DNA of 64,000 nt from contig NZ_CP128187.1 in assembly GCF_035207705.1 (NCBI RefSeq), positions 1,984,001 to 2,048,000 on the forward strand, in the 5' to 3' direction. Below the pieces are notes generated by a model. The model worked only from the letters and a program-made list of their open reading frames with translations. It did no database searches and was not told the origin of the DNA. Below, piece after piece: positions 29,190-37,168 of the stretch (position 1 is the first letter of the stretch; each line of letters starts with the position of its first letter). This stretch comes from Maribacter sp. BPC-D8. GTDB taxonomy: Bacteria; Bacteroidota; Bacteroidia; Flavobacteriales; Flavobacteriaceae. The position numbers and the translations under genes are program-made.

Positions 29190-30461
29190 ATGGCAGTAGA
29201 TTTATTGTTAGGCCTACAATGGGGTGACGAAGGAAAAGGAAAAATTGTTGATGTATTAACTAGAGATTACGACATTATTGCGCGTTTTCAAGGTGGTCCA
29301 AATGCTGGTCACACCTTAGAATTTGACGGTATTAAACACGTACTTAGAACTATTCCTTCAGGAATTTTTCATAAAAAAGCAATGAACGTTATTGGTAACG
29401 GTGTTGTTATCGATCCGGTTGTTTTTGTAAAAGAACTAGAAGGTTTAGACCAGTTCAACATAGATTACAAAGCAAAACTTATTATTTCTAGAAAAGCACA
29501 TTTAATATTACCAACTCACCGTTTGTTAGATGCAGCTTCTGAAGCATCTAAAGGAAAAGCAAAAATTGGTTCTACTTTGAAAGGTATTGGTCCGACTTAT
29601 ATGGACAAGACTGGTAGAAACGGTATGCGTATTGGAGATTTAGAATTAGAATCTTGGAAAGAAAAATACCGTCATTTAGCAGATAAGCATGAAACTATGA
29701 TTAGTTTCTACAATGTAGATGTACAGTATGATTTGGATGAAATGGAAGTAGAATTCTTTGAAGCTGTAGAGCGTTTAAAAGAATTAACTTTTATAGATAG
29801 CGAAGAGTATTTAAACCAAGCTATTAAAGCAGGTAAAACTATTTTAGCAGAAGGTGCTCAAGGGTCTTTATTAGACATCGATTTTGGTACATACCCATTT
29901 GTTACATCATCTAATACAACAGCAGCAGGTGCTTGTACAGGTTTAGGTATTGCACCTAATAAAGTAAAAGAAGTATATGGTATTTTCAAAGCATATACTA
30001 CTCGTGTAGGTTCTGGTCCTTTCCCAACAGAATTGTTCGATGAAGTTGGTGCAGAAATGGCTAAAGTAGGTCACGAATTTGGTGCAGTAACCGGTAGACC
30101 TCGTCGTTGTGGTTGGTTAGACCTTGTAGCATTAAAATATGCTTGTCAAGTAAATGGTGTTACACAATTAAATATGATGAAGGGCGATGTACTTTCTGGT
30201 TTTGATAGCCTGCAAGTATGTACTGCTTACGAGTACAAAGGCGAAACCATAACTCATTTTCCATATAACATAGAACCAGAGAACGTAACTCCTATTTACA
30301 CTGAGTTCGCTTGTTGGAAAGAAGACTTAACTAAAATGACTTCAGCAGACCAATTGCCGAAAGAACTTAACGAGTATATTGACTTTCTTGAAAAAGAATT
30401 AGAAGTGCCAATTAAGATTGTTTCTGTTGGTCCAGATAGAACACAAACAATTTCAAGATAA
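29190..30461 (+). CDS. purA: Adenylosuccinate synthetase
   Basis: 423 residues, standard length. GLQWGDEGKGKIVD at the N-terminus contains the P-loop-like catalytic Asp13; GPNAGHTLE, IGSTLKGIGPTYMDKTGRNGMRIGDL, AEGAQGSLLDIDFGTYPFVTSSNT and GAVTGRPRRCGWLD follow in the usual order. It makes adenylosuccinate from IMP, Asp and GTP, the first step of the AMP branch. Its linkage to the (p)ppGpp enzyme is notable because PurA is a known ppGpp-inhibited enzyme in other bacteria, although no regulatory tie is shown here. A strong terminator follows. Confidence 0.98.
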   Translation: MAVDLLLGLQWGDEGKGKIVDVLTRDYDIIARFQGGPNAGHTLEFDGIKHVLRTIPSGIFHKKAMNVIGNGVVIDPVVFVKELEGLDQFNIDYKAKLIISRKAHLILPTHRLLDAASEASKGKAKIGSTLKGIGPTYMDKTGRNGMRIGDLELESWKEKYRHLADKHETMISFYNVDVQYDLDEMEVEFFEAVERLKELTFIDSEEYLNQAIKAGKTILAEGAQGSLLDIDFGTYPFVTSSNTTAAGACTGLGIAPNKVKEVYGIFKAYTTRVGSGPFPTELFDEVGAEMAKVGHEFGAVTGRPRRCGWLDLVALKYACQVNGVTQLNMMKGDVLSGFDSLQVCTAYEYKGETITHFPYNIEPENVTPIYTEFACWKEDLTKMTSADQLPKELNEYIDFLEKELEVPIKIVSVGPDRTQTISR

Positions 30462-30497
30462 ACATCTAACGACCAAGAGCGGTTGTTCGACTTACAG

Positions 30498-30542
30498 GAA
30501 TGGCGATATAGGGAAATACCTTTATCGCCATTCTTTTTTTTT
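30498..30542 (+). terminator. Intrinsic terminator after purA
   Basis: 11-bp perfect stem (30498-30508 with 30523-30533) with further pairing possible in the loop, followed by a run of nine Ts. It separates purA from the sugar-oxidation island. Confidence 0.9.
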
Positions 30543-30563
30543 GTAATTTCAATATCGTGTAAA

Positions 30564-30578
30564 ATGTAAATTTTACAT
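30564..30578. promoter_or_regulatory. Palindrome upstream of the 3-keto-sugar island, candidate operator
   Basis: ATGTAAA-T-TTTACAT is a 15-base inverted repeat with perfect 7-base arms, ending 21 bases before the first gene of the island. Position and symmetry suit binding by a dimeric repressor or activator. No regulator gene lies in the island, so the factor would act in trans. Confidence 0.4.
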
Positions 30579-30599
30579 CTTTCAACTACAACTCGATAT

Positions 30600-31397
30600 A
30601 TGAAAAAAACCACCTTCGCAACACTAATCGCACTTATTGCTTTAACTATTTCTTGTAAAACAGAAAAAAAACAAACAACAGAAGAGCAAACAAAAACCGA
30701 AGAACCAGCTAAAGGCGAATGGATTACCTTATTCGACGGAACCACTACTAAAGGTTGGCGTGCATACAACGGTAAAGAACTACCACCAGGATGGATTGCT
30801 AAAGATGGTGAATTACAATTCGATACTGAATTAGGAAAAGAACAAGACTACACAGGTGGCACTGATATTATTTATGGTGCAGAAGAGTTTGATAATTTTG
30901 AACTCTATGTAGAATGGAAATTACCAAAAGGCGGTAATAGTGGTATTTTCTATCACTTAAAAGAAGGCTATGATAGTCCGCCAGAAGTTTCACCTGAATA
31001 CCAATTAATCGATGATGAAAATTACGCCAGCATTCACGACTTAACTGACTACAACCTAAGCTTAGGGTATACAGACAAACCCGAAGAACTAAAACCACTT
31101 CAGCAAACTGCTTCTGATTACGCCATGCATGCGGCTGAACCTGAAGGAAAAATATTGAACCCTGTTGGAGAATGGAATACTACTAAAATCATTTTCACAC
31201 CTGAACAAGTTGAGCATTGGCTTAACGGTAAAAAGGTAGTATCATTTGTACCTTGGAATGAAGCTTGGTACGCAAAGAAGAATTCAGACAAATGGAAGAA
31301 TAGTAAAGATTATGGCAAGTTTAAAACTGGCTATATAGGCTTCCAAGATCACTCTAGCCCCATCTGGTTTAGAAATATAAAAATCAAAAAACTTTAA
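30600..31397 (+). CDS. DUF1080 lipoprotein (3-keto-disaccharide hydrolase family)
   Basis: 265 residues with a lipoprotein signal ending at Cys19 (TISC) and a Glu/Lys/Thr-rich linker to about residue 38. The single domain from WITLFDGTTTKGWRAYNG to IWFRNIKIKKL is a concanavalin-like jelly roll. It shows family hallmarks: FDG near the start, DIIYGAEEFDNFELYVEWKLPKGGNSGIFYHL in the middle, and EWNTTKIIF...VEHWLNGKKV near the end. Members hydrolyse or eliminate glycosidic bonds of 3-keto-glycosides. It is the first gene of a set with a Gfo/Idh/MocA oxidoreductase and a ThuA-like protein, which fits that chemistry in the periplasm or on the cell surface. Confidence 0.92.
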   Translation: MKKTTFATLIALIALTISCKTEKKQTTEEQTKTEEPAKGEWITLFDGTTTKGWRAYNGKELPPGWIAKDGELQFDTELGKEQDYTGGTDIIYGAEEFDNFELYVEWKLPKGGNSGIFYHLKEGYDSPPEVSPEYQLIDDENYASIHDLTDYNLSLGYTDKPEELKPLQQTASDYAMHAAEPEGKILNPVGEWNTTKIIFTPEQVEHWLNGKKVVSFVPWNEAWYAKKNSDKWKNSKDYGKFKTGYIGFQDHSSPIWFRNIKIKKL

Positions 31398-31408
31398 AGA
31401 CCACACCA

Positions 31409-32845
31409 ATGAATAAAAGAGACTTTTTAAAAAACGCGGCAGCATTGTCCACATTTGTATTATTACCATCTGGACTTTGGTCTTGTAAAAAAGAAGAAAC
31501 GAAATTAACTAGGCTTCGTACTGCGCATATTGGTGTTGGTAATATGGGCGCAGCAGATTTGGAAGCCATTTCATCACACAGCAAGGTAGATGTAACTGTA
31601 TTATGCGACGTTGATGCTAATAATTTGGCAGAAGCAAAAAAACTGCATCCAAATGCAAAAACATATACCGACTATAGAGTGATGTTAAAAGAAATGGGCG
31701 ATGAAATTGATGCTGTGGTTGTATCAACTCCTGATCATACCCATGCACCTGCTTCTATGATGGCTATGGAGATGGATAAGCCAGTGTATTGTCAAAAACC
31801 GTTGACGCATTATGTATCTGAGGCTAGAGCTATGAACAAACTAGCAGCAGAAAAAGGCTTGATTACCCAAATGGGAATTCAAGTACATTCATTTTACGAT
31901 TATAAACTAGCTACCTTATTAATACAATCTGGTATTATTGGCAAAGTACATACGGTACGAGCATGGTCACCAAAAGATTGGGGCTATGACGGAACTGAAC
32001 CAACAGGTTCTGACCCAATACCAGAATCTTTAGATTGGAATTTATGGTTGGGAACTTCTGCAGAAAGACCATATAAAGAAGGATTCTATCACCCAGGTAA
32101 TTGGAGAAAATTAGTCGATTACGGTTGTGGTACTTTAGGTGATATGGGCGTTCATATTTTTGACACTCCGTACAATGCTCTAGACCTGCAAGTTCCTATG
32201 ACCATTAAAAATGAATGTAGAGAACCAAACGGATTCGGTTTTCCACAAAACAATGTTGTGACTTACGAATTTCCGCAGACTCCTTACACCACAGAAACAT
32301 TAAAATGGGTTTGGTACGATGGTCCGGGTGCACCGCAAGACCATGAAGATTTAATACTTCCTGGAGCTAAGAAAGTGAAAGGTTCAGAAGAAACTGCGGA
32401 AGATTCTATGGAAGACAAAATGTCTCTAGAAACCAAAACTGCAGATAAAGGTACATTGCCTGACCAAGGTGCTATGTTCATTGGTGAAAAAGGAAGATTA
32501 TTGTTACCTCACTTCATGCAACTACCAACTAAAATAGTAGATGGGGAATATGTGGATATATCTGCAGAAATAGAAGCGGTTGAAAAAGCGAATAATATGG
32601 GTAAACCAATTCGTAATTATGACACGGAAGGAGCTAAACATTATCATCAGTTTGTAGATGCCTGTTTAGGCACAGATGAAACCACCGCGCCATTCTCCTA
32701 TGCTTCTAGACTTACCGAAACTATTTTACTAGGTGTAATTGCTGGTAGATTCCCTAATCAAGTTTTACATTGGGATAGTGAAAACGCCAAGTTCTCTGAA
32801 GATGAAGCCAACGCTTTCTTAGAAGGCGATTACAGAAATTTCTAA
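31409..32845 (+). CDS. Exported Gfo/Idh/MocA-family oxidoreductase (lipoprotein/Tat-like signal)
   Basis: 478 residues. The signal has a twin-arginine-like KRDFLK followed by a hydrophobic run and a lipobox-like LWSC (Cys26), so it is probably exported folded with its nucleotide and lipidated. The Rossmann domain has AHIGVGNMGAADLEA, and the family substrate-site lysine lies in VYCQKPLTHYVSEA. The C-terminal domain includes WRKLVDYGCGTLGDMGVHIFD, whose GDMGVHxxD histidine is the usual catalytic block. Such enzymes oxidise sugar C3-OH to 3-keto, or interconvert sugars with tightly bound NAD(P). It lies 11 bases after the DUF1080 gene and is clearly its operon partner. Confidence 0.92.
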   Translation: MNKRDFLKNAAALSTFVLLPSGLWSCKKEETKLTRLRTAHIGVGNMGAADLEAISSHSKVDVTVLCDVDANNLAEAKKLHPNAKTYTDYRVMLKEMGDEIDAVVVSTPDHTHAPASMMAMEMDKPVYCQKPLTHYVSEARAMNKLAAEKGLITQMGIQVHSFYDYKLATLLIQSGIIGKVHTVRAWSPKDWGYDGTEPTGSDPIPESLDWNLWLGTSAERPYKEGFYHPGNWRKLVDYGCGTLGDMGVHIFDTPYNALDLQVPMTIKNECREPNGFGFPQNNVVTYEFPQTPYTTETLKWVWYDGPGAPQDHEDLILPGAKKVKGSEETAEDSMEDKMSLETKTADKGTLPDQGAMFIGEKGRLLLPHFMQLPTKIVDGEYVDISAEIEAVEKANNMGKPIRNYDTEGAKHYHQFVDACLGTDETTAPFSYASRLTETILLGVIAGRFPNQVLHWDSENAKFSEDEANAFLEGDYRNF

Positions 32846-32862
32846 ATCATATTTAAAATAAT

Positions 32863-32888
32863 AAAAACCACTTTCGAGTGGTTTTTTT
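32863..32888 (+). terminator. Terminator-like hairpin inside the sugar island
   Basis: 10-bp perfect stem (32863-32872 with 32877-32886), TTCG tetraloop and T7 in total. It lies between the second and third genes, so the last two genes need read-through or their own promoter. Confidence 0.85.
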
Positions 32889-32931
32889 ATATCTATATTT
32901 AAAGGAACGAACTGCCACCAACTTACTCAAA

Positions 32932-35900
32932 ATGACAACAATCACTACAAAATTATTTAGATTCGCTCTACTACTCATAAGCGTTCTAATTGTTCAAAGC
33001 TGTACTGAAAGCAAAGAGCCGTTAATAGATATAAAACCACATTCAACTATTGTTTTTATTGGAAACAATCTAGGATCTAGAATGTTAAATTATGGTAGTT
33101 TAGAAACGGAATTGCAATTGCGCTACCCTAAAGATTCGTTAATCATTAGAAATATGTGCGATGGTGGCGACACCCCAGGCTTTAGACCACATTCGGGGCG
33201 GGTATCGCCCTGGGCTTTTCCTGGTGCCGAAAAGTTTCAAACAGAACTAGCAAAGAATTCTGGCAGTGAAGGAATTTTCGAAACTCCTGATGAATGGTTA
33301 ACACGCTTAAACACCGATGTTATTTTAGCTTTTTTCGGTTATAATGAATCTTTTGAAGGTACTAATGGACTAGAAAATTACAAGGCGGAATTAGATGCAT
33401 TTATAAAACATACTTTAAAACAGAAATACAATGGAACTTCCACTCCACAATTAGTATTGGTTTCCCCTATTGCTTTTGAAGATATTTCAGACCATTTTGA
33501 TGTACCAAATGGAGTATCAGAAAATGAAAATTTGAAGTTGTATACCCATGCAATGAAAGATATTAGCGCTGCTAATAATATTCCTTTTATAGATGTTTTA
33601 AGCCCCACTAAACAATGGTTTCAAAATACCGAAAATGACATAACTATAGATGGCTCTCAAATGAACAAAAGCGGATATGATAAATTCGCTAAACATCTGG
33701 CTAATGAACTTACTGGTAATAAAGCTGTTAAATCTGAAACCAAAAGAATAGCTACAAACGAAGCTATCGCCGAAAAGAATTTTTACTGGCATAATGATTA
33801 TAAAATTCCGAATGGAGTTCATGTTTTTGGAAGACGCCATGCCCCTTATGGTCCTGACAACTACCCCTACGAAATAAAAAAAACTAGAGAACTTACTTCA
33901 ATTAGAGATTCGTCTATTTGGGCTAGCGCTCAAGGTAATTCTTATGACATAAATTCGGCAGATGCCTTAACATCTCAACTGCCTCCCGTAGAAACCAATT
34001 ACAATTTAGGAAATAGCGAAGATATCGTACACTACAAGTATGGCGAAGATGCTATTAAAACATTGACCGTGCCTAATGGATATAAAGTTGAATTATTTGC
34101 GTCGGAAAAGGAATTTCCAAATTTGGCCAACCCCGCGCAAATATCTTTTGACAACAAAGGTCGTTTGTGGATTGCTACCCTACCCTCTTATCCACATTAT
34201 AAGCCGGGCGACCCAAAGCCAAATGATAAGATAATTATCTTAGAAGACACCGACAACGATGGCAAGGCAGATAAGGAAACGGTATTCGCAGATAAATTAC
34301 ATTTACCTATTGGCTTCGAATTTTCACCAGAAGGCGTTTATGTGAGCCAAGGCACCAACTTAAAACTGTACACAGATACCGATGGAGATGACAAGGCCGA
34401 TAATGTTGAAATAGTACTGAGTGGATTTGATGATCATGATACGCACCACGCCATTTCGGCATTTTGTGCAGACCCTTCTGGAGCTTTTTATATGTCGGAA
34501 GGTATTTTTCTCCATACGAATGTTGAAACCTCATACGGAACGGTGCGAGCCACTAATGGCGGATTTTACAGATACAATCCGCAGCGCAAACATTTAGAGC
34601 GAACATTGCAAGTTGCTATTCCGAATCCGTGGGGAATTGCTTTTGACGATTGGGGTCAAGATTTCTTTTTACACACTTCAGGTCCGAAAGTAAATTGGAT
34701 GATGCCAAGTTCTTTAAAACCTATTTACGGAATTTCGTCTCCACTAACAGAAGAACTTATTGAAGAAGCGCATCGGGTTAGACCAACATCGGGTATGGAG
34801 TTTATATCAAGCAGTCATTTTCCTGAAGAAGTACAAGGCGATATGTTGCTAGCTAATTCCATTGGATTTTTAGGATTGAAACAACACCAAATGATGGAAG
34901 ACGGCACTGGGTATTCTTCTAAACATAGACAAGATTTAATTACGAGTACTGACCCTAACTTTAGACCTGTAGAAATGGAATTTGCGCCAGATGGTTCTTT
35001 ATATATTGTTGATTGGCACAATGTACTAATCGGGCACATGCAGCATAATGCGCGCGACCCATTGCGCGATCATGTACATGGCAGAATTTATAGAATCACC
35101 TACCCTTCTAGACCTCTTATAAAACCAGCTAAAATTGATGGAGCTTCTATTGCACAGTTATTCGAAAATTTAAAACTATCGGAATATAGAACACGATACA
35201 GAACTCGCAGAGAATTAAGAAGTAGAAAAAGCGAAGAAGTATTAAAATATTTAAATACTTGGGTAGGTAATTTAGATAAAAACGACACCAATTATGACCA
35301 CAATCGACTAGAAGCATTATGGGTTTCATGGGGAATGAATAAAGTTGATGAACCTCTTTTAGAATCGTTATTAAAAACTGACGACCATAGAGTACGAGCT
35401 GCATGTGTACGCGTAATAAGGTACATGAGTCATCAATTAATTAACGCCCAAGATTTATTAAAATTAGCAGCTACCGACAAACACGGCAGAGTTCGGTTAG
35501 AAGCTATTACTGCAGCATCTTGGCTACCAAAACTTGAAGGCATGGAAATACTAGAAATCGCCAGAAAACATCCTTTAGACGAATGGATGCAAGATTCTTT
35601 CAATTTTGCAGAAACAAGATTAACAGGTGATTTTATGGAAGAAGCTAACGAGGAAATTCTAGCATCTCACCTAAAAGGAACAGATTTAGAAGTCTTTACA
35701 AAAGGAAAAAAGATTTACGAAACAGAAGGCTATTGCATTACCTGCCATCAAGAAAGTGGCTCAGGGCTACAAAAAGCTGGATACCCAACATTAGTGGGTC
35801 AAGAATGGGTTTTAGGGGATGAAGAACGATTAATAAAATTAGCTCTTCACGGACTTTACGGACCAATGAATGTAATGGGCAATCAATACGAAGGTCAAGT

Positions 35901-36093
35901 ACCTATGATGGCATTTAAAGGTCTTTTAAAAGATGATGAAATTGCAGCTGTACTTACTTATGTCAGAAATTCATTTGGCAATAAAGCATCGGTAATCGAT
36001 CCAAAGAAAGTAAGAGAAGTACGAGAAGCAACCAAAGACAGAAAAAGTTTCTATACTGCCGATGAGTTGCTAAAAGAACATCCTATGAAATAA
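32932..36093 (+). CDS. Multidomain lipoprotein: SGNH-like + dehydrogenase beta-propeller + HEAT + cytochrome c
   Basis: 1053 residues from the ATG at 32932. A longer frame opens at 32878, inside the hairpin, and has no signal. The N-terminus is a lipoprotein signal with Cys at VQSC. Residues about 36-265 are SGNH/GDSL-like, but the GDSL position reads GNNLGS and the usual DxxH block reads DGSQMN, so hydrolase activity is doubtful. About 384-720 is a glucose-dehydrogenase-type beta-propeller with calcium-like loops (DTDNDGKAD, DTDGDDKAD), as in the putative membrane-bound dehydrogenase family of Planctomycetes and Bacteroidota. About 745-915 is HEAT-like helical repeats. The C-terminus is a monohaem cytochrome c with CITCH at 935-939 and a VPMM segment as likely Met ligand. 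It probably oxidises a sugar and passes electrons to the haem. Confidence 0.9.
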   Translation: MTTITTKLFRFALLLISVLIVQSCTESKEPLIDIKPHSTIVFIGNNLGSRMLNYGSLETELQLRYPKDSLIIRNMCDGGDTPGFRPHSGRVSPWAFPGAEKFQTELAKNSGSEGIFETPDEWLTRLNTDVILAFFGYNESFEGTNGLENYKAELDAFIKHTLKQKYNGTSTPQLVLVSPIAFEDISDHFDVPNGVSENENLKLYTHAMKDISAANNIPFIDVLSPTKQWFQNTENDITIDGSQMNKSGYDKFAKHLANELTGNKAVKSETKRIATNEAIAEKNFYWHNDYKIPNGVHVFGRRHAPYGPDNYPYEIKKTRELTSIRDSSIWASAQGNSYDINSADALTSQLPPVETNYNLGNSEDIVHYKYGEDAIKTLTVPNGYKVELFASEKEFPNLANPAQISFDNKGRLWIATLPSYPHYKPGDPKPNDKIIILEDTDNDGKADKETVFADKLHLPIGFEFSPEGVYVSQGTNLKLYTDTDGDDKADNVEIVLSGFDDHDTHHAISAFCADPSGAFYMSEGIFLHTNVETSYGTVRATNGGFYRYNPQRKHLERTLQVAIPNPWGIAFDDWGQDFFLHTSGPKVNWMMPSSLKPIYGISSPLTEELIEEAHRVRPTSGMEFISSSHFPEEVQGDMLLANSIGFLGLKQHQMMEDGTGYSSKHRQDLITSTDPNFRPVEMEFAPDGSLYIVDWHNVLIGHMQHNARDPLRDHVHGRIYRITYPSRPLIKPAKIDGASIAQLFENLKLSEYRTRYRTRRELRSRKSEEVLKYLNTWVGNLDKNDTNYDHNRLEALWVSWGMNKVDEPLLESLLKTDDHRVRAACVRVIRYMSHQLINAQDLLKLAATDKHGRVRLEAITAASWLPKLEGMEILEIARKHPLDEWMQDSFNFAETRLTGDFMEEANEEILASHLKGTDLEVFTKGKKIYETEGYCITCHQESGSGLQKAGYPTLVGQEWVLGDEERLIKLALHGLYGPMNVMGNQYEGQVPMMAFKGLLKDDEIAAVLTYVRNSFGNKASVIDPKKVREVREATKDRKSFYTADELLKEHPMK

Positions 36094-36113
36094 TCAACCA
36101 TAAAATAAACCTT

Positions 36114-37097
36114 ATGAAAAGTAATTATTTAGCGATACTATTTCTATGCCTATTAACGGCCTGTGGAGAAAAATCGAAAGAAAAAATAGCGCCGCCTATA
36201 GATGAAACCAAACCACCTCATATTGTTTTTGTTACAGGTGAAGAAGAATACCGATCAGAAGAATCTTTCCCCATGTTAGCAAAATTGGCAAAAAGAGAAT
36301 TAGGAGCGAAAGTTACCGTAGTCTATTCTGTAGATAGTTTAGGTATTATAGACCCCAACAGAACTGATCACATTGCGGGCTTAGAAGCATTAGAAACAGC
36401 AGATTTAATGGTGGTTTTTATGCGTTTTAGAGATATCCCAAAAAGCGAACGAGATTATATTACCAATTATGTAGAATCTGGTAAGCCCATAGTTGGTTTC
36501 AGAACTACTACACATGCCTTTAAATATGATAATGATTCAACCTTAATCGAATTCAACGAAGCTTGGCCTGCAAAAGTATTTGGTCAACAATGGATCACTC
36601 ACCATGGTCATTTTGATGATGGTAAATTTCCGGTCACCAATATTTCTATAAAAGAAGGTCATGCTGAAAACCCTATATTAAACGGATTTTCAGAATTCGA
36701 AGCATACAGCTGGTTGTACCATGTAGATGGTGGCGATTGGAAACTTCAAGGCGATAGCGAACCCTTTTTAATGGGGCACTCCACAAAATCGCAACATGAA
36801 ATCGACGGTAAATTAGAAGACTTTTCATTAGATAATCCTGTTGCATGGACAAAGAGTTACACCGGATCTTCAGGCAAAAAAGCAAGAGTATTCTTTACCA
36901 CACTTGGGCATCCTTATGACTTTAAACTTCCTGTGGTTCGTAAGATTGCCATGAACGGAATTTATTGGGCATTAGGTAAAGAAAATAGTATTCCTTCAGA
37001 TGGAGTGAATGTCAACCTAGACGAACCTTTCTTACCTAATAATTCAGGATTTGGACAAAAATTCAAAAAGAATCAAAAACCGGAGCCTATACAGTAG
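36114..37097 (+). CDS. ThuA-domain lipoprotein
   Basis: 327 residues with a lipobox ending at Cys17 (LTAC). One ThuA domain, a class I glutamine amidotransferase-like fold, runs from PHIVFVTGEEEYRSEESFPMLAKLA through LEALETADLMVVFMRFRDIP and GKPIVGFRTTTHAF to RVFFTTLGHPYDF. The normal GATase catalytic Cys is not apparent; ThuA proteins have Arg/Thr (GFRTTTHAF) at that elbow. In Rhizobium, ThuA acts with the Gfo/Idh enzyme ThuB in trehalose use through 3-keto intermediates. It lies 20 bases after the cytochrome-fusion gene and completes the island. Confidence 0.92.
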   Translation: MKSNYLAILFLCLLTACGEKSKEKIAPPIDETKPPHIVFVTGEEEYRSEESFPMLAKLAKRELGAKVTVVYSVDSLGIIDPNRTDHIAGLEALETADLMVVFMRFRDIPKSERDYITNYVESGKPIVGFRTTTHAFKYDNDSTLIEFNEAWPAKVFGQQWITHHGHFDDGKFPVTNISIKEGHAENPILNGFSEFEAYSWLYHVDGGDWKLQGDSEPFLMGHSTKSQHEIDGKLEDFSLDNPVAWTKSYTGSSGKKARVFFTTLGHPYDFKLPVVRKIAMNGIYWALGKENSIPSDGVNVNLDEPFLPNNSGFGQKFKKNQKPEPIQ

Positions 37098-37147
37098 TAC
37101 TTTACTAAATGTATGCTAATAGTTTTATGCGCTCTTTTAAAATGTTC

Positions 37148-37155
37148 TATTTTTG
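37148..37155 (+). promoter_or_regulatory. -7 element ahead of the OstA-like gene
   Basis: TATTTTTG fits TAnnTTTG and is 13 bases before the TTG start codon, giving a leader of about ten bases or less. There is no obvious terminator between the ThuA gene and this point, so the element marks the start of a new unit. Confidence 0.5.
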
Positions 37156-37168
37156 AAAAAAAAGTAGA

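Follow-up and report, generated by a model that had tools for sequence, protein, structure and literature searches.

Gene organization of the locus

A stretch of four genes in the genome of Maribacter sp. BPC-D8 was analysed within a window of 64,000 nucleotides, which corresponds to 1.98-2.05 Mb of the 4.78-Mb single-contig genome. The genes lie on the plus strand between a purA-like gene (presumably purA, as named from its sequence) and an OstA-like gene (ostA), and encode a DUF1080 lipoprotein, a Gfo/Idh/MocA oxidoreductase (Gfo) with a signal of the twin-arginine translocation (Tat) type, a large lipoprotein in which a beta-propeller resembling that of soluble pyrroloquinoline quinone (PQQ) glucose dehydrogenase (sGDH) is joined to a cytochrome c domain (the propeller protein), and a ThuA-like lipoprotein (Table 1). 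The open reading frames (ORFs) and their matches to Pfam and NCBIfam profiles bore out the preliminary description, which had named these four families. Its further statement that the set contains no glycoside hydrolase (GH), SusC/D pair, transporter or regulator agreed with the ORFs of at least 100 aa in 30564-37097, and the FUR-family gene lies outside this range.

Table 1. Genes and hairpins of the four-gene stretch and its surroundings (positions in the window)
Feature	Position	Strand	Match or property
DUF1080 (PF06439, 3-keto-disaccharide hydrolase family) lipoprotein, 265 aa	30600-31397	+	Pfam 159.2 bits, cut-off 26.8
Gfo/Idh/MocA oxidoreductase, Tat-type signal, 478 aa	31409-32845	+	PF01408, 67 bits
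SGNH-like/sGDH-like beta-propeller (DUF7133/TIGR02604)/HEAT/cytochrome c lipoprotein, 1053 aa	32932-36093	+	PF23500, 245.9 bits; cytochrome c, 37.4
ThuA-like lipoprotein, 327 aa	36114-37097	+	PF06283, 45.3 bits, cut-off 33.4
Terminator-like hairpin then T run, between the pairs	32863-32886		RNA fold -11 kcal/mol, z -4.56
Terminator-like hairpin and T run after purA-like gene	30497-30542	+	-23.0 kcal/mol
purA-like gene	29190-30461		upstream neighbour of the four genes
OstA-like gene	from 37169		PF13100; downstream neighbour
FUR-family gene	28673		further upstream of the four genes

The DUF1080 and Gfo genes (pair A) are separated by 11 bp, the propeller and ThuA genes (pair B) by 20 bp, and the two pairs by 86 bp when the propeller gene is read from ATG 32932. 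This start was preferred to that of the mechanically called ORF (GTG 32878) because a signal sequence is then present and the hairpin between the pairs is avoided. Such a hairpin was found at the Gfo-propeller junction in all ten Maribacter loci compared (the window's own, one from another genome of the genus and eight from named Maribacter), although the stem sequences differ. At the purA-DUF1080 junction, a hairpin of the kind located at 30497-30542 was present in all eight loci holding both genes (counted without a shuffle control), and the DUF1080 gene therefore probably begins its own unit. Terminator-like sites were not enriched in a consensus scan of the whole region (8 found against 6.2 ± 2.6 expected) and the shuffle comparison was made for the hairpin at 32863-32886 only, so the weight of the hairpin evidence was placed on its conserved position. 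The hairpins point to two putative transcription units, DUF1080-Gfo and propeller-ThuA. A conserved operon of all four genes was considered and rejected, given the hairpins at the junction and a four-gene order restricted to Maribacter among the loci examined.

The DUF1080-Gfo pair

Gfo was found in 32 of 120 genomes of the family (E ≤ 1e-60), 31 of them at orthologue level (at least 447 bits) and one (G118) at 216 bits. For the analysis of gene neighbourhoods, 31 Gfo loci were drawn from 30 Flavobacteriaceae genomes, the window's own genome being excluded; a DUF1080 gene was located upstream within 150 bp in 25 of these loci and within 4 kb in 28, and none was found within 4 kb upstream of Gfo in L044, L057 and L060. 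The DUF1080 match was weak (27-28% identity) in L054 and, for the nearest copy, in L042; both loci are included in the 28. DUF1080 and Gfo form a pair found across Flavobacteriaceae.

Among NCBIfam profiles, that of the BT_2158 glycoside 3-dehydrogenase (BT_2158_fam, NF058561) ranked first for Gfo with 292 bits, and the nearest chains in the PDB were 8tdf and 8tdh (E 5.5e-43, residues 35-314). The alignment with 8tdf shares QKPLTH and GTLGDMGVHI (the KPLTH and LGDM..HI stretches) together with the Gfo/Idh Rossmann domain. These matches place Gfo among the distant relatives of the BT_2158 glycoside 3-dehydrogenases. The PDB relatives of the DUF1080 protein were headed by 3u1x (1e-40) and included 8rr2 and 8tda; we take 8tda and 8tdf to be BT2157/BT2158-type structures, and 8tdh is likewise presumed to belong to the BT2156-BT2160 pathway.

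The Tat-type motif [KR]R-x-F-[LIV]-[KR] was present in all 32 Gfo N-termini. A lipobox pattern was matched by 3 of the 32 sequences, the window among them (the Cys of L040 lies outside the pattern), and by 20 of 28 DUF1080 sequences; of the eight DUF1080 sequences without a match, most do contain a Cys, which the pattern misses. The preliminary description had assigned a lipoprotein or Tat-like signal with a lipobox Cys to all four proteins. Judged by eye, all four N-termini in the window do resemble a signal sequence with a Cys, and the Tat-type motif of Gfo is conserved, whereas its lipobox is not; Gfo as a conserved lipoprotein was rejected on this count.

The NCBIfam, PDB and Tat-motif matches support the earlier proposal of a DUF1080 protein accompanied by an exported Gfo/Idh enzyme related to the glycoside 3-dehydrogenase/3-keto-glycoside system, and pair A is plausibly a member or a near relative of this kind. 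Among the neighbours listed for Gfo loci were GH97 and a GH109-type protein (L042), GH20 (L040), and GH20, GH2 and a sulfatase-modifying-factor gene (L049), and these GH-type neighbours agree with a role in glycan breakdown.

The propeller-ThuA pair

The propeller protein (E ≤ 1e-80) and ThuA (E ≤ 1e-20) were found in the identical 12 of the 120 family genomes. The closest named records of the propeller protein were from Maribacter, with identities of 85-89% in the best segments of the first four, in a scan from which records of the own genome were possibly left out. Neighbourhoods were examined at named propeller loci, namely the best 80 of 591, with flanks of up to 10 kb (shorter on short contigs); this set, to which all counts of propeller loci below refer, includes some genomes of the family sample (L131, L143 and L189 are G026, G018 and G104, respectively). 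Of the 80 loci, 58 had ThuA near the propeller gene, 8 had Gfo there and 7 had DUF1080, and every locus with Gfo or DUF1080 nearby was labelled Maribacter. The propeller-cytochrome and ThuA are a separate, widespread and uncharacterised Bacteroidota pair; no description of it was found in a literature search by titles and abstract starts, with most subscription journals outside its scope.

At 16 of the 80 loci, the propeller and ThuA genes flank a five-enzyme core of ketosugar type, one on each side. The core consists of a TIM barrel, a levoglucosan-dehydrogenase-like Gfo, an IolM-like dehydrogenase, a short-chain dehydrogenase/reductase and an IolG-like Gfo (names taken from one representative locus, L102, whose ketosugar-type enzymes include a psicose-3-epimerase-like one), and an epimerase-like TIM barrel, a major facilitator superfamily (MFS) transporter and an AraC regulator are often nearby. 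It is complete in five family genomes (G018, G032, G050, G080 and G104) and truncated in G037, where the contig ends; the propeller gene is close to ThuA in G001 and G011 too, but the marker TIM barrel of these two genomes lies elsewhere. The marker TIM barrel (E ≤ 1e-30) was present in 8 of the 120 family genomes, every one among the 12 propeller genomes, and was not found in the window's genome at this threshold. Pair B without the core was seen in the window, its same-genus relative, G026 and G102. In L102 (2918-16819) and in 16 full-core loci among L119-L198, a ketosugar or cyclitol-like cluster of about 13 kb stands beside the propeller-cytochrome and ThuA genes, and its genes in L102 are IolM-, IolG-, levoglucosan-dehydrogenase- and psicose-epimerase-like, with MFS, AraC and RhaM genes.

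The propeller protein scored 224 bits against TIGR02604 (PVC-type haem-binding CxxCH; cut-off 122) and has a cytochrome domain in addition. The preliminary description of its domains was incomplete, since it had overlooked an N-terminal SGNH-like domain, which scored 23.5 bits in Pfam, below the cut-off of 32.9, and gave fold matches to SGNH esterases. In an alignment of 42 sequences (A1; the window protein and 41 of the propeller loci), the positions of the SGNH catalytic Ser (block I) and His (block V) were occupied in all 42 by Asn46 and Gln243, respectively, by an assignment based on general SGNH motifs; the catalytic residues of an SGNH hydrolase are accordingly replaced. CxxCH and Met992 were invariant in all 42 sequences, as were FDDHDTHH and most of DWHNVLIGHMQHNARDP (42/42 at most positions).

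An AlphaFold2 model of the protein, built from the 42 sequences, had a mean predicted local distance difference test score (pLDDT) of 78.7. With Foldseek, the best match of the propeller was sGDH (E 6.8e-5, TM-score 0.46 by target length, with weak stretches in the model), and the cytochrome domain matched that of a haem-Cu nitrite reductase. On this model, the protein resembles a glucose-dehydrogenase-like (sGDH-type) propeller with a haem domain, and the fold match together with CxxCH and Met992 supports a haem protein with such a propeller, in agreement with the beta-propeller dehydrogenase/cytochrome c fusion of the preliminary description. It may share the propeller fold with sGDH (5min, 1c9u), and with the TIGR02604 proteins it has a profile score over the cut-off and a fused cytochrome c in common; unlike either, it adds SGNH-like and HEAT domains.

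ThuA was modelled with a pLDDT of 84.6, and the best Foldseek match was the ThuA-like 4e5v (E 3.7e-8, TM-score 0.48-0.54), in line with its PF06283 score over the cut-off. A profile search of PDB sequences with ThuA gave no match up to E 0.01, although the fold search found 4e5v. ThuA has a role in trehalose utilisation in rhizobia. The 3-keto chemistry that the preliminary description took as settled for ThuA found no support in the present results. In contrast to known ThuA, the Maribacter protein is a lipoprotein and the partner of a cytochrome.

According to one alternative, a real possibility that falls short of likely, the propeller-cytochrome would itself be the sugar dehydrogenase, oxidising C3 or C1 and feeding ThuA and perhaps also DUF1080, with Gfo acting in parallel on other glycosides. 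The sGDH-type fold, the invariant stretches named above, the frequent partnership with ThuA, and the epimerase and ketosugar-type genes of the wider cluster are in its favour. PqqC was found neither in the 10 genomes searched nor in any control genome.

Relationship between the two pairs

All 12 propeller genomes among the 120 family genomes carry Gfo, and among 395 genomes of the class the propeller was present in 17, Gfo in 14 and both in 11. A paralogous DUF7133-cytochrome, used as a control, was present in 8 of the 395 and shared 5 of these 8 with Gfo; these searches were made at E ≤ 1e-150 (control), 1e-200 (propeller) and 1e-90 (Gfo), and their rates are only roughly comparable. Fisher tests of co-occurrence counted 32 family Gfo genomes, including the paralogue-level G118, uncorrected for relatedness. 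Because the control shares Gfo genomes at a nearly equal rate, genome type may suffice to explain the co-occurrence. The check put forward in the preliminary description, co-occurrence in related genomes, had a mixed outcome: the genes do co-occur in the family and in 11 of 17 class genomes, but the paralogue behaved much as they did, and genome co-occurrence as proof of one pathway was rejected.

Physical proximity was also considered. At the 42 Gfo loci other than the window, DUF7133 genes were found in three (L039, of the same genus, L040 and L199) against 0.95 expected (p 0.07), and the idea that DUF7133 is enriched there was rejected. L040 (8825-15078), from another genus, contains a tight row of DUF1080, Gfo, GH20 and a DUF7133/cytochrome c gene, that is, pair A with a different cytochrome, and L199 contains another DUF7133-cytochrome about 2.8 kb after Gfo. 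In the own genome, all three DUF7133 matches (E ≤ 1e-10) lie near a DUF1080 match, at distances of 0.8, 2.7 and 3.6 kb. At about 2.51 Mb of this genome (L070:10430-16673), a two-domain DUF1080 gene, a Tat-type Gfo gene and UxuA are convergent with a DUF7133-cytochrome c gene.

If the four proteins formed one pathway, Gfo would make a 3-keto-glycoside, DUF1080 and ThuA would cleave or process it, and the propeller-cytochrome would re-oxidise the enzyme-bound NADH or the product and pass electrons to the respiratory chain. This is unlikely in our judgement. The four-gene order fixed in Maribacter, the occurrence of Gfo in 12/12 family and 11/17 class propeller genomes, the DUF7133-cytochromes near Gfo in L040 and L199, and the three DUF7133 matches of the own genome close to DUF1080 agree with it; set against these are the hairpins between the pairs, the fact that propeller-Gfo linkage was seen in Maribacter loci alone (8 of the 80), the 3 of 42 Gfo loci with DUF7133, one of them of the same genus, the sharing of genomes by the paralogue, and the result that, at the threshold used, no propeller was found in 19 of the 31 family genomes whose Gfo is at orthologue level.

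The purA-ostA gap

Each pair was also found without the other between purA and ostA. In L125 and L127-L130 the order is purA, propeller, ThuA and ostA, without pair A, and in L042, L054 and L055 pair A lies between purA and ostA without pair B (the DUF1080 of L054 being weakly similar). The gap (30462-37168 in the window) seems to be a variable site, as for insertion, filled by either or both pairs. In L122 (Maribacter litoralis), about 1 kb of extra sequence with a possible Tat-type ORF is present between thuA and ostA.

The preliminary description had joined the four genes into one island for oxidation, cleavage and electron transfer. This was not supported, in view of the hairpins between the pairs, a linkage confined to Maribacter and the presence of each pair alone at purA-ostA elsewhere; a single island is possible, unsupported by linkage.

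The neighbouring ostA, of a family for lipopolysaccharide transport, and the position kept in Maribacter would also suit a non-catabolic function, in which the proteins would modify glycans of the cell's own envelope and would be kept at this site for that purpose. We consider this very improbable, since no more than 4 of the 31 Gfo loci and 14 of the 80 propeller loci have ostA as a neighbour, the wider clusters hold a transporter, an AraC regulator and catabolic-type enzymes, and some Gfo loci have GH97, GH20, GH2 or GH109-type genes.

Proposed function

On balance, the four genes probably represent two modules of two genes each, independent of one another, that serve to oxidise sugars in the envelope and lie next to each other in the purA-ostA gap of Maribacter. 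In module A, Gfo would be exported folded, with its nicotinamide cofactor, via Tat and would oxidise the C3 position of a glycoside; the DUF1080 lipoprotein would then break the weakened glycosidic bond by elimination and hydration or by hydrolysis. In module B, the sGDH-type propeller would oxidise a sugar or sugar derivative and pass the electrons to its own haem, and ThuA would act on the oxidised product. The products of both modules would be taken up and metabolised by genes elsewhere. We infer the substrates, reactions and location of these proteins, as well as the propeller's cofactor and any joint action of the modules.

Several results weigh against this proposal of two independent modules or against parts of it. 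For module A, the score of Gfo is far under the BT_2158 equivalog cut-off of 750 bits, and its reaction may therefore differ. At 11 further Gfo loci, 10 of them from other families, DUF1080 was present within 4 kb in 5 (two weak) and was not found within 4 kb of Gfo in 6. In PMC9007349, the DUF1080 member THTE_1561 is described as an endo-xanthanase/lichenase and as one of two characterised members known to its authors, and BT2157 is named a 3-ketotrehalose hydrolase; given these two activities, membership of PF06439 leaves the reaction unfixed. Deletions of BT2157 or BT2158 caused no growth defect on raffinose-family sugars, according to PMC11501099. For module B, residues 501-566 of the propeller model are mostly below 60 and the TM-scores to sGDH are below 0.5, and the PqqC search mentioned above, negative in the control genomes too, belongs here as well.

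The independence of the modules is affected by the distances between DUF7133 and DUF1080 genes. Of the 54 places with DUF7133 counted in ten genomes, 11 have a DUF1080 match no more than 5 kb away, against 1.7 expected. The ten genomes were chosen as propeller carriers, two being from one genus. The count omits the second fragment of each DUF7133 match that was split (four cases), the second domain of DUF1080 proteins that have two, and a single DUF1080 row of 44 bits, and the general clustering of sugar genes was uncontrolled. With this proximity and the co-occurrence of pairs A and B in genomes, the two pairs may cooperate.

Chemistry by way of 3-keto-glycosides has recently been recognised as an alternative to glycoside hydrolases, and to our knowledge little is known of how exported 3-keto-glycoside dehydrogenases dispose of their electrons. 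If the propeller-cytochrome/ThuA pair does oxidise sugars, a function would be provided for DUF7133, which is found with ThuA across Bacteroidota. A wider idea, which we regard as rather doubtful, is that DUF7133 propeller-HEAT-cytochrome c proteins with ThuA partners provide the Bacteroidota envelope with a haem-linked way of making 3-keto (or other keto) sugars, the third after the NAD-dependent Gfo/Idh and flavin GMC routes, and that they associate repeatedly with DUF1080 cleavage enzymes, by which glycoside cleavage would be coupled to respiration. The locus also illustrates that adjacency within one genus can hint at a single pathway where a broader comparison reveals two modules.

Comparison with known systems

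Pair A is similar to the Bacteroides BT2156-BT2160 pathway, reportedly described in a Nature paper of 2024, in that a DUF1080 protein and an exported Gfo/Idh, homologous over their core domains, are encoded by adjacent genes. It differs in that the Maribacter Gfo reaches 292 of the 750 bits, aligns with 8tdf mainly over 35-314 and has no second Gfo/Idh beside it. LacABC with DUF1080 (Caulobacter CCNA_01705), as presented in PMC9007349, is alike in the proposed periplasmic oxidation at C3 followed by cleavage by DUF1080, whereas no GMC match, as for a GMC-type LacA, was obtained among the six window proteins scanned. A locus with GMC and DUF1080 genes was found elsewhere in the own genome, at about 3.42 Mb (L071:10302-19999). 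A 153-aa gene beside its GMC gene was considered as LacB and rejected, since the Pfam match was an ASCH domain. L071, which contains neighbouring DUF1080 genes, TIM-barrel proteins, a GMC oxidoreductase, a Gfo and a transporter of the nucleoside-symporter family, is perhaps a LacA-like 3-keto locus.

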